Assembly: GCA_025808555.1 (NCBI GenBank)
Contig: CP075526.1
Span: 1,256,712 to 1,320,711, forward strand
Reading direction: 5' to 3'
Source of the DNA: Anaerolineales bacterium
Lineage (GTDB): Bacteria > Chloroflexota > Anaerolineae > Anaerolineales > UBA11579
Length of the DNA stretch: 64,000 nucleotides
Under the pieces are notes generated by a model that had not been told where the DNA came from, did not search any database, and saw only the letters and a list, made by a program, of their open reading frames with translations. Of this stretch, positions 50,678 to 54,066 are shown piece by piece (positions within the stretch are counted from its first letter, which is position 1; every line of letters begins with the position of its first letter). Made by a program: the position numbers and the translations under genes.

Positions 50678-50711
50678 ACAACCTGCAGGCATACCTCTGG
50701 GGGCGTTGCAG

Positions 50712-50717
50712 TACAAT
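50712..50717 (+). promoter_or_regulatory. -10 box of rarA, leaderless arrangement
   Basis: TACAAT ends 10 bases before ATG 50728, with no Shine-Dalgarno sequence between, so transcription would start within a few bases of the start codon. Confidence 0.6.
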
Positions 50718-50727
50718 CGTTCTACTT

Positions 50728-52158
50728 ATGGATCAAGATCGGTACGATCTATTTGACCACGCCCTCAAGGAGCGCCTGGCTACCGAAAGCCCTCTGGCTG
50801 CCCGCATGCGCCCGCGCCGCCTGGACGAGTACATCGGCCAGGACGATATTGTGGGCGAGGGCCGCCTATTGCGCCGCGCCATTGAAGCGGACCGGCTGTT
50901 TTCCTCGATCCTGCTGTGGGGGCCGCCAGGCTCGGGCAAGACCACCCTGGCCATGGTCATCGCCAACCACACCCAGTCCTATTTCGTAACCCTTTCGGCG
51001 GTGATGACCGGTAAAGCTGATCTAGCCGCCGTCATCGAAGAAGCGCGTGAGCGCCGCCGCCTGCACAATCTGCGCACCATCTTGTTTGTGGATGAAGTGC
51101 ACCGCTGGAACAAGGCCCAGCAGGATGCTTTGCTGCCGCATGTGGAGAACGGCACCATCACCCTCATCGGCGCCACGACCGAGAACCCGTATTTTGAGGT
51201 CAATGGTGCCTTAGTGTCCCGCTCGCGTGTTTTCCAACTGCGCCCGCTTTCTGACGAAGATGTGCGTCGCGTGCTGGAGCAGGCCCTGCAGGACGCCGAG
51301 CGCGGCTACGGCGGCCGCACGATCAAGTTTGACGAAGACGCCGCCCAGCATCTAATCCACGTCGCCGGCGGTGATGCCCGCAATGCGCTTAATGCGCTCG
51401 AGCTGGCGGTGGAATCCACCCCGCCGACGGACGGCGTGGTGCACATCACCCTGCCCGTGGCGCAGGAGTCCATCCAGCGCCGGGCTGTGTTGTATGACAA
51501 AGACGGCGATGCACACTATGACACTATCTCCGCCTTCATCAAGTCTGTGCGCGGGTCAGATCCGGATGCCGCGCTGTACTGGCTGGCTAAGATGCTGTAT
51601 GCCGGCGAAGACCCGCGCTTCATCTTCCGCCGCCTGCTGATCTTGGCCGGCGAGGATATTGGCATGGGCGATCCCATGGGCATGGTGGTGGCCAATGCCG
51701 CCGCACAGGCTTTTGATTACGTCGGCCTGCCTGAGGGTATCTTCCCGCTGGTGCACGCCGTGGTGTATCTCTCTACCGCGCCCAAGTCCAACAGCAGCCT
51801 GGGTTACTTCTCCGCCTATGCCAAGATTGAAGCCGACGGCATGGTGGAAGTGCCCGACCCCCTGAAGGACAAGAACCGCGATGGCAAAGCCCTGGGCCAT
51901 GGTCAAGGTTACGTCTATCCACATAATGCGCCGGAGCATTTTGCGCCGCAGCAGTACCTGCCCAGCGGCGTGCTCGGCACCTATTTCTATACACCGTCTG
52001 AGCAGGGTTATGAGGCCGAGATCAAGGACCGCTTAGCCCGCTGGCGTGAAGCCCAGCGCAAAGCACTTGGCATCACGCGCAGCGAAGAAGTGCCTACGCC
52101 CAGCAAGGAAACGGCAGATGCATTGAAGTCTCGTCACAAAGCCGGAGGAAACCAGTAA
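50728..52158 (+). CDS. rarA: Replication-associated recombination protein A (RarA/MgsA AAA+ ATPase)
   Basis: The 476-residue clamp-loader-like AAA+ protein acts at stalled replication forks. Motifs are RPRRLDEYIGQDDIVG, Walker A LLWGPPGSGKTTLA near 60, Walker B ILFVDEVHRWNKAQQDALLPHVE, sensor 1 IGATTENPYFEV and sensor 2 GGDARNALNALE. The C-terminal tetramerisation region (RGSDPDAALYWLAKMLYAGEDPRFI, GQGYVYPHNAPEHF) is complete. ATG 50728 begins the conserved protein; a longer frame extends through the promoter and is rejected. The next gene starts 2 bases after its stop. Confidence 0.95.
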   Translation: MDQDRYDLFDHALKERLATESPLAARMRPRRLDEYIGQDDIVGEGRLLRRAIEADRLFSSILLWGPPGSGKTTLAMVIANHTQSYFVTLSAVMTGKADLAAVIEEARERRRLHNLRTILFVDEVHRWNKAQQDALLPHVENGTITLIGATTENPYFEVNGALVSRSRVFQLRPLSDEDVRRVLEQALQDAERGYGGRTIKFDEDAAQHLIHVAGGDARNALNALELAVESTPPTDGVVHITLPVAQESIQRRAVLYDKDGDAHYDTISAFIKSVRGSDPDAALYWLAKMLYAGEDPRFIFRRLLILAGEDIGMGDPMGMVVANAAAQAFDYVGLPEGIFPLVHAVVYLSTAPKSNSSLGYFSAYAKIEADGMVEVPDPLKDKNRDGKALGHGQGYVYPHNAPEHFAPQQYLPSGVLGTYFYTPSEQGYEAEIKDRLARWREAQRKALGITRSEEVPTPSKETADALKSRHKAGGNQ

Positions 52159-52160
52159 GC

Positions 52161-52766
52161 ATGCCAACCGTGTTGTTGATCCGTCATGGGGAGAACGATT
52201 ACGTAAAGAAGCAAAGGTTGGCGGGCCGCCTGCCCGGCGTGCATTTGAATGCACGCGGCCGGGCGCAGGCTGCCGCCCTGGCGGCCGCGCTCAAAGCGGT
52301 GCCGCTGGCCGCTGTATACAGCAGCCCGCTGGAGCGGGCTGTGGAGACGGCCCAGCCGCTGGCCGCCGCCCGCAAGCTGCGCATCATCAAGCGCAAAGGC
52401 TTGCTGGAAAGTGATCTTGGCGAGTGGCAAGGCAAGCTGCTCAAGACGCTGCGGCGTGATAAGCGCTGGGCGGTGCTGCAGAACACGCCCTCGCTGTTCC
52501 GCTTTCCGGGCGGCGAAGGCATGCTGGAGCAGCAAGCCCGCCTGGTGAGCGAAGTCGATGCGCTGTGCGCCATGCACAAGGCCAAGGACATCATCGCCTG
52601 CGTGCTGCACGCCGACCCCATCAAACTCATCGTGGCCCACTATGCTGGCATGCCCTTGGACCAGTTCCAGCGTTTGAGCGTGGCGACTGCCTCGGTCAGC
52701 ACCCTCCATATCCAGAATGGCCGTGCCACGTTGGAGCGGCTAAACTGGGTGGCTACGGAAACTTAA
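52161..52766 (+). CDS. Histidine phosphatase family protein, MSMEG_4193-like phosphomutase
   Basis: The 201-residue protein starts MPTVLLIRHGENDYV, with the catalytic His in RHGE, then SSPLERAVETAQPLA, LLESDLGEWQGK and the second active-site His in VLHADPIKLIV. It belongs to the phosphoglycerate mutase-like phosphatases; the order with DUF3090 and the SCO1664-like gene matches the MSMEG_4193 group. The substrate is unknown. It follows rarA by 2 bases and precedes DUF3090 by 45 bases, which contain a separate promoter. Confidence 0.88.
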   Translation: MPTVLLIRHGENDYVKKQRLAGRLPGVHLNARGRAQAAALAAALKAVPLAAVYSSPLERAVETAQPLAAARKLRIIKRKGLLESDLGEWQGKLLKTLRRDKRWAVLQNTPSLFRFPGGEGMLEQQARLVSEVDALCAMHKAKDIIACVLHADPIKLIVAHYAGMPLDQFQRLSVATASVSTLHIQNGRATLERLNWVATET

Positions 52767-52794
52767 TCCGCTCTCCATTCACTATTTTCAGGAC

Positions 52795-52800
52795 TATACT
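52795..52800 (+). promoter_or_regulatory. -10 box of the DUF3090 gene
   Basis: TATACT ends 11 bases before ATG 52812. It allows DUF3090 and the kinase-like gene to be expressed apart from rarA, on an mRNA with almost no leader. Confidence 0.5.
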
Positions 52801-52811
52801 GCGCGCATACT

Positions 52812-53339
52812 ATGACCAAGCTGATCGAACTTCGCCCGGTTGACCATATAACTACCGATGCCATCGGCCCCGCCGGCCAGCGCGTCTTCTACATTCAGGC
52901 CTGGAAGGAAGAGCGCATTGTGGCTGTGATCGTTGAAAAGGTGCAGGTGCAGAGCCTGGCCGTCGCCATTGAGCAGTTCCTGGCTGAACTCAATACCAAG
53001 CATGTTGATCTGCCCAACGCCTCCGCTGATTTTGAGGAAGGGCAGATGCATATTCACCCGCCGGTGGATGCGCTTTTCCGCGCCGCAGAAATTGGCATGG
53101 GCTACGACGCCGAGCAGGATCTGGTGGCGTTGGAGTTGCGTGAAGGTGTTGAGGCGCCGGAAGCCAGCACGGACGACCTGCATGTGGCCCGTTTGTGGTG
53201 CACGCGTTCGCAGATCCGCAGTATGGCCAACTGGGGCATCGAGATCGCCTCGCGCGGCCGGCCAACCTGCCCGCAGTGCGGCGAGCCGATGGACCCCGCT
53301 GGCCATTTCTGCGTCAAAAAGAACGGCCACAAGCACTAG
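52812..53339 (+). CDS. DUF3090 family protein with C-terminal zinc-ribbon
   Basis: This 175-residue protein matches the DUF3090 family (LIELRPVDHITTDAIGPAGQRVFYIQAW, EKVQVQSLAVAIEQFLAEL, WCTRSQIRSMANWGIEIASRGRPTCPQCGEPMDP). The C-terminus CPQCGEPMDPAGHFC with following His residues looks like a zinc ribbon. The family is uncharacterised; in Actinobacteria it is genetically linked to MSMEG_4193 and SCO1664 homologues, often in mycothiol-producing species. The same three genes are adjacent here. Its stop overlaps the region before the kinase-like start. Confidence 0.9.
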   Translation: MTKLIELRPVDHITTDAIGPAGQRVFYIQAWKEERIVAVIVEKVQVQSLAVAIEQFLAELNTKHVDLPNASADFEEGQMHIHPPVDALFRAAEIGMGYDAEQDLVALELREGVEAPEASTDDLHVARLWCTRSQIRSMANWGIEIASRGRPTCPQCGEPMDPAGHFCVKKNGHKH

Positions 53340-53362
53340 AGGCCGGTCTGCACGTTCTGTCA

Positions 53363-54049
53363 GTGCTGCAGTCGGGGGGGCTTGAACTTGAGGGCCAGTT
53401 CACCTCGGGCTCCAACTACACATTCCTGGTGCGCGTCGACGGCCAGCTGGAGGGCGTATACAAGCCGGTGCGCGGCGAGCAGCCGCTGTGGGACTTCCCG
53501 CCCGAGACGCTGGCTGGCCGCGAAGTAGCGGCCTACCTGCTGAGCGAGGCGCTGGGCTGGCATTTGGTGCCACCTACGGTCCTGCGCACGGAGGGGCCGT
53601 TTGGGCCGGGTTCGCTGCAGCTGCGCGTCCAGCACGACCCGGAACAGCACTACTTCACTTTTGAGGACGCCGTGCGCCAGCGTCTGCGTCCAACCGCCGT
53701 ATTCGATCTGCTTGCCAACAATGCTGACCGCAAGGGCGGCCATATCCTACAGGGGGAAGATGGCCATATCTGGCTGATCGACCATGGCATCTGTTTCCAC
53801 GAGGAGCCGAAGCTGCGCACTGTCGTCTGGGATTTTGCTGGCGAGTCCATTCCGCCTGATTTGTTGGATGACGTAAGCGCGTTGCAAGTCAAGCTGGGCG
53901 CTGGCGGCCAACTGAATGAGCAGCTCTCCGCCTTCCTCAGCCCGGCGGAGCTGGCCGCGCTGCGCCAGCGCACGGACGCGGTGCTGGGCCGGCCGGTCTT
54001 CCCGCACCCGCCACAGGATGAGCGCTACATGCCCTGGCCGCCAGTCTAG
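53363..54049 (+). CDS. SCO1664 family protein, PI3/4-kinase-like fold
   Basis: The protein, about 228 residues from GTG 53363, matches the SCO1664/TIGR03843-type family, noted for weak similarity to phosphatidylinositol kinases. Kinase-like elements are LEGVYKPVRGE (ATP-binding Lys), VFDLLANNADRKGGHIL (catalytic loop Asp and Asn/His) and IWLIDHGICFHEE (metal-binding Asp, DFG-like). The start is uncertain: GTG 53363 gives the usual N-terminus (LQSGGLELEGQFTSGSNYTFLV); a longer open frame back to 53195 overlaps DUF3090. No ribosome site is seen, so translation may be coupled. The substrate is unknown. Confidence 0.85.
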   Translation: MLQSGGLELEGQFTSGSNYTFLVRVDGQLEGVYKPVRGEQPLWDFPPETLAGREVAAYLLSEALGWHLVPPTVLRTEGPFGPGSLQLRVQHDPEQHYFTFEDAVRQRLRPTAVFDLLANNADRKGGHILQGEDGHIWLIDHGICFHEEPKLRTVVWDFAGESIPPDLLDDVSALQVKLGAGGQLNEQLSAFLSPAELAALRQRTDAVLGRPVFPHPPQDERYMPWPPV

Positions 54050-54051
54050 GC

Positions 54052-54057
54052 TAGAAT
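54052..54057 (+). promoter_or_regulatory. -10 box of the flippase-like gene
   Basis: TAGAAT ends 9 bases before ATG 54067, with no ribosome site, the same leaderless arrangement as rarA. Confidence 0.55.
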
Positions 54058-54066
54058 CCAAACTTC

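Follow-up and report, generated by a model that had tools for sequence, protein, structure and literature searches.

A conserved phosphatase, DUF3090 and SCO1664-family kinase cassette in an Anaerolineales genome without an MshC-like protein

A histidine phosphatase, a DUF3090 protein and an SCO1664-family kinase are encoded side by side in the Anaerolineales genome studied here, and the trio is a real, conserved and already known cassette, ordinary in Chloroflexota and not special to this genome. What is new is the structural reading of the kinase and of DUF3090, together with the separation of the cassette from MshC. The genes of the trio, which is widely conserved in actinomycetes and also occurs in mycobacteria, have so far been filed as "possibly mycothiol"; the predicted folds of the kinase and of DUF3090 point to concrete assays, namely of ATP use, of sugar, inositol and protein substrates, and of nucleic-acid binding. 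Our best reading, held tentatively, is that the kinase and the phosphatase work as a pair on a single soluble substrate and that DUF3090 serves as an adaptor. The vertically inherited three-protein module would most likely be cytosolic: a compact PI4KII/FAM20/HipA-branch kinase would phosphorylate the substrate, an acid-phosphatase-type enzyme with an intact active-site motif would take the phosphate off again, and DUF3090, with its predicted PUR/Whirly-like fold and zinc ribbon, would be the adaptor or sensor that brings kinase and substrate together. The substrate would most likely be a soluble hydroxyl compound of sugar or inositol type; a lipid or a dedicated mycothiol step would be less probable. 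The gene identities, order and conservation, the intact active-site motifs, the predicted kinase fold and the absence of MshC are observations, from which we infer the common substrate of the two enzymes, its class and the role of DUF3090.

Locus layout and conservation of the trio

The window, that is, the whole stretch of 64,000 nucleotides analysed, corresponds to positions 1256712-1320711 of a genome of 2.24 Mb in one contig. The trio occupies 52161-54049 on the + strand in the order known from Actinobacteria, and Pfam and NCBIfam models assign all three families, in agreement with the identities, coordinates and order proposed in an earlier note on this DNA. The features are as follows.

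50689..52158, + strand: rarA (MgsA-type AAA+ ATPase), upstream neighbour (PF12002, 2.4e-58)
52161..52766, + strand: histidine phosphatase (branch 1), MSMEG_4193/Rv2135c-like (PF00300; best NCBIfam family TIGR03848)
52795..52800, + strand: TATACT, a -10-like element before DUF3090 (GGACTATACTGCG identical in L035 and L036)
52812..53339, + strand: DUF3090 protein, alpha-beta core with C-terminal zinc ribbon (PF11290, TIGR03847)
53363..54049 (start GTG 53363 or CTG 53348), + strand: SCO1664-family kinase, predicted PI4KII/FAM20-type fold (TIGR03843, AlphaFold model)

Close relatives of the window locus (L001) are the loci of congeneric Anaerolineales MAGs of Chloroflexota (L035, L036). The cassette adjoins rarA, as had been noted earlier, with 2 nt between the rarA stop (52156-52158) and the phosphatase ATG (52161); among 80 named loci this linkage is limited to the own genus (L001, L035, L036), as is the neighbourhood of an LPG-synthase-like membrane protein and an amine oxidase.

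The 80 named loci, which are those found with DUF3090 and come mostly from Chloroflexota and Actinomycetota, carry the kinase within 400 nt downstream of DUF3090 on the same strand in 78 cases and the phosphatase just upstream on the same strand in 73. Two of the seven loci without an upstream phosphatase begin at a contig end, and in Leptolinea and Levilinea the phosphatase does not lie beside DUF3090. Across 201 Chloroflexota genomes, DUF3090 was found in 130, the kinase in 111 and both in 104 (odds ratio 37), leaving 26 genomes with DUF3090 only and 7 with the kinase only. A count by hand from coordinates found the two genes next to each other in about 69 of the 104 genomes with both and apart in about one third. 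This arrangement is far beyond chance, and the genes are not scattered in most genomes; such scatter is what the earlier note had named as counting against its proposal. Its suggestion that the cassette is ancient also holds up: the trio is present across two phyla, and the window kinase groups in a tree with those of other Anaerolineae and of Ardenticatena, as vertical descent predicts.

Since order and strand are alike in two phyla and DUF3090 and the kinase co-occur strongly, the genes probably serve one common process. The pairs that lie apart and the single-gene genomes indicate that each part can function in the absence of the others, and they would fit three independent housekeeping genes that share no substrate and are adjacent by descent only; given the shared order, strand and co-occurrence, we regard this as quite improbable. 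A search of the neighbourhood for hints of the substrate revealed no other gene family that stays with the trio across Chloroflexota, and the neighbours of the actinobacterial trio (mshC, uppP and others) are clade-specific. Compared with the actinobacterial SCO1664/DUF3090/MSMEG_4193 cassette (TIGR03843, TIGR03847 and TIGR03848; the Rv2135c region of M. tuberculosis), the window copy has the same three families, order and strand; it differs in lacking an adjoining mshC or uppP and any MshC in the genome, in a phosphatase that scores just under the TIGR03848 cut-off, and in the genus-specific rarA upstream. Variant arrangements were also seen: the order is turned round (kinase-DUF3090) in one family (G014, G023, G032, G041 and G059; L172, L173), the two genes are divergent in G126 (L174), and a kinase-DUF3090 pair is present twice in G200.

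The earlier note had also credited the cassette with its own promoter. No gap for a promoter of the whole cassette exists, because the phosphatase follows rarA directly; at most, the claim applies to DUF3090 and the kinase. In the 45-nt spacer between the phosphatase and DUF3090, TATACT (52795-52800), the one promoter-like element noticed in the cassette, sits 11 nt before the DUF3090 ATG, within a 13-nt block that is identical in the three species (window, L035 and L036), the rest of the spacer having diverged. The window has a single TATACT-N11-ATG, where 0.07 would be expected, and a sigma-70 scan reported nothing at this site. On this modest evidence, DUF3090 and the kinase would also be transcribed from this element, in a second mRNA with almost no leader. 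A TAGAAT (54053-54058) 8 nt before the ATG of the next gene (54067) is conserved too. The kinase gene has no ATG, and its reading frame is open from within DUF3090; the start candidates are GTG 53363 and CTG 53348, the latter with AGAGG ahead. Within 53339-53366, the CTG and a GAGG/GGAG 5 nt upstream are kept in the two congeners, and GTG 53363 is kept in one only.

The kinase and the phosphatase

The kinase scored 276.4 bits across the full length of TIGR03843 (cut-off 172.4), which places it in the SCO1664 family. Its AlphaFold model (pLDDT 93.7) matched PI4KII-beta best (Z 19.5, 218 residues aligned, 3.1 A), followed by Fam20 (Z 16.2), CtkA (14.2) and HipA (10.6), and a Hydra Fam20 with bound sugar was among the top structural matches. 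A sequence-profile comparison with solved proteins ranked FAM20A first, then PI4KII, FAM20C and FAM20B (glycosaminoglycan xylosylkinase). The score against Pfam PI3_PI4_kinase (PF00454) was 23.2 bits, below the gathering score of 27.1, and 35 of 36 relatives matched this model at E values up to 1. Ten residues (K41, E61, D122, N126, N127, D129, R130, K131, H134 and D147) are invariant in 36 sequences, among them the ATP lysine K41, the catalytic Asp D129 and the metal-binding Asp D147 expected of an active kinase; a lack of conservation at the motif residues, which the earlier note had also named as evidence against itself, was therefore not observed. The His five residues past the catalytic Asp (DRKxGH) is a mark of the SCO1664 family.

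The kinase shares with FAM20A/B/C, its closest sequence relatives among solved proteins (E 1.5e-4), the FKP/YKP, E..AA and PPTV.R blocks, the DR catalytic loop and the fold (Z 14-16). It differs in having no extra domains round the core, in being about half the size of FAM20 and in the His at D+5, and it is not a member of Pfam Fam20C, which one relative matches at E 0.3. Type II phosphatidylinositol 4-kinase, the top structural match, has only 17% identity to a protein that falls under the PF00454 gathering score, and a lipid substrate would here be putative. Taken together, the predicted fold suggests that the protein is a complete, compact member of the PI4KII/FAM20/HipA branch with the full set of catalytic residues, and activity is predicted.

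The phosphatase matched PF00300 at 1.1e-49 (169 bits). TIGR03848 outscored the other families by far and is matched by all 29 relatives examined; the window protein itself scored 190.6 bits, under the cut-off of 203.85. The active-site residues R8, H9, R59, E83 and H150 are invariant in 29 homologues and comprise the RHG motif, second Arg, Glu and His of branch 1. Rv2135c, the M. tuberculosis homologue, is a tetrameric acid phosphatase without mutase activity and with weak activity on small phosphoesters; it acts on glycerol-1-phosphate, fructose-6-phosphate and PEP and is inactive on ADP, glucose-6-phosphate and 3-phosphoglycerate (PMC3866925).

Sugars, lipids and proteins cannot be told apart as substrates from the kinase fold by itself. 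A protein-phosphorylation switch, in which the kinase would act on Ser/Thr of a target protein recruited by the DUF3090 zinc ribbon and the phosphatase would reverse the modification, is possible, if on the unlikely side. Protein kinases of the same fold (CtkA and HipA, with the Z scores above, and Fam20C at 15-16) speak for such a switch, as do the 13 of 36 kinase homologues that touch Pfam HipA_2, and zinc ribbons are common protein-docking elements. However, gene order links no target to the trio, whose further neighbours are not conserved across Chloroflexota, and the closest phosphatases of solved structure have small-molecule substrates, namely phosphoserine and alpha-ribazole phosphate.

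DUF3090

DUF3090 matched PF11290 at 2.5e-44 (151.6 bits; cut-off 27) and TIGR03847 at 137.3 bits (cut-off 117.25). It had been described as a zinc-ribbon protein, and the Cys-Cys-His-Cys set of the ribbon (C153, C156, H165 and C167) is indeed invariant in 37 sequences. The AlphaFold model (pLDDT 90.4) has a beta4-alpha-beta3-alpha arrangement plus the ribbon, and its five top structural matches were PUR repeats I-II at Z 8.8-9.3 (PURA 9.3), a value just above the level reached by models without a clear relative. Lower matches included two cyanobacterial proteins (about 6), Whirly (5.5) and MRP guide-RNA proteins (4.5). The two half-repeats align in register with a score of 19.8, compared with a maximum of 15.3 in 30 shuffles. 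A PUR repeat is composed of beta-beta-beta-beta-alpha (PMC2954813), and the DUF3090 model resembles the PUR domain proteins (PURA, Pur-alpha, Bpur) in its two sheet-plus-helix repeats, the match extending over 113 residues; it differs in its 5% identity, its acidity, the added zinc ribbon and the lack of a profile match. The likeness of DUF3090 to two PUR repeats plus a zinc ribbon is therefore suggestive only. We claim neither homology to PUR proteins nor nucleic-acid binding, because the Z score of 9.3 is marginal and every homologue is acidic.

These matches and the register of the half-repeats would nonetheless be what one expects of a nucleic-acid module, in which DUF3090 binds ssRNA or ssDNA through a PUR-like sheet and the two enzymes modify RNA, a nucleotide or a bound protein. 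The net charge is negative in 37 of 37 homologues (-2 to -21; window copy -9), unlike that of typical nucleic-acid binders; Foldseek with the model returned nothing significant, a sequence search of solved structures gave no match, and profiles of the family members matched, besides DUF3090 itself, mainly zinc ribbons weakly, with no PUR or Whirly family among the Pfam matches listed. We consider such a module improbable. Its bolder form, in which DUF3090 would be a bacterial PUR/Whirly-type protein that acts with a FAM20/PI4KII-like kinase and a phosphatase in a reversible phosphorylation module, predating mycothiol and not depending on it, whose target is a nucleic acid or a ribonucleoprotein, appears very improbable.

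As a phosphate acceptor, DUF3090 was a poor candidate: it has no invariant Ser/Thr/Tyr, and only positions 38 and 131 reach at least 80% Ser/Thr/Tyr. Because neither of these is invariant, the protein is more likely a partner than an acceptor. A lone 20-residue match to DUF3090 in one viral contig was taken as irrelevant.

Relation to mycothiol

A link of the cassette with mycothiol was part of the earlier note, and a review reported that in actinomycetes SCO1664 is invariably found near mshC (PMC4255298). For co-occurrence, 20 named genomes were compared. In several of the actinobacterial loci analysed here, mshC follows closely after the cassette. The window genome has neither MshC nor an adjoining mshC: its only protein of this kind is CysRS (a 538-aa open frame), which a tree places inside the CysRS clade. 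The two congeners, Leptolinea and Levilinea likewise have only CysRS, and DUF3090 and the kinase are also kept without MshC in further genomes, one of them from Caldilineaceae. Since the window genome has both genes without an MshC-like protein, the role of the kinase and DUF3090 must be a different one, at least in this genome.

No protein exceeded the MshC cut-off in the 201 Chloroflexota genomes. About half of them (e.g. L033, L034, L115-L126) encode a CysRS paralogue of 400-450 aa that is MshC-like, scoring as high as 409 bits, and forms a group apart from CysRS in a tree of 31 sequences; for most genomes the two were told apart by score and match number, and 18 ambiguous genomes were left out of the count. 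DUF3090 and this paralogue occur together in 84 genomes, DUF3090 only in 33 (13 families), the paralogue only in 15 and neither in 51, giving an odds ratio of 8.7 that is uncorrected for phylogeny; family counts point the same way, 27 of 40 DUF3090-bearing families having an MshC-like protein too. Given this paralogue, and MshB over its family cut-off in 13 Chloroflexota genomes, a mycothiol-like pathway may exist in the phylum. As a marker, MshB is uninformative because its relatives match almost everywhere.

The proposed link thus stands as an association of DUF3090 with MshC-like proteins across the phylum and fails in the window genome, its congeners, Leptolinea and Levilinea. An accessory role in mycothiol synthesis, for example with the phosphatase supplying the MshA2 activity, the dephosphorylation of GlcNAc-Ins-P, would account for the actinomycete linkage and for the association across Chloroflexota. 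Against it stand the genomes that keep DUF3090 and the kinase without MshC, nine genomes that have an MshC-like protein with neither DUF3090 nor the kinase, and the pathway as described, which has no kinase step (PMC4360819). We hold such a role to be improbable, and it is already disfavoured for the window genome.

Families of the 26 DUF3090 genomes without the kinase (f17, f18, f26, f43 and f44, and f14) carry the MshC-like paralogue, as do most kinase-only genomes. In one locus (L166; G166:C71), the kinase lies about 4 kb downstream of an MshC-like gene on the same strand, the sole linkage this close noticed in the Chloroflexota sample.
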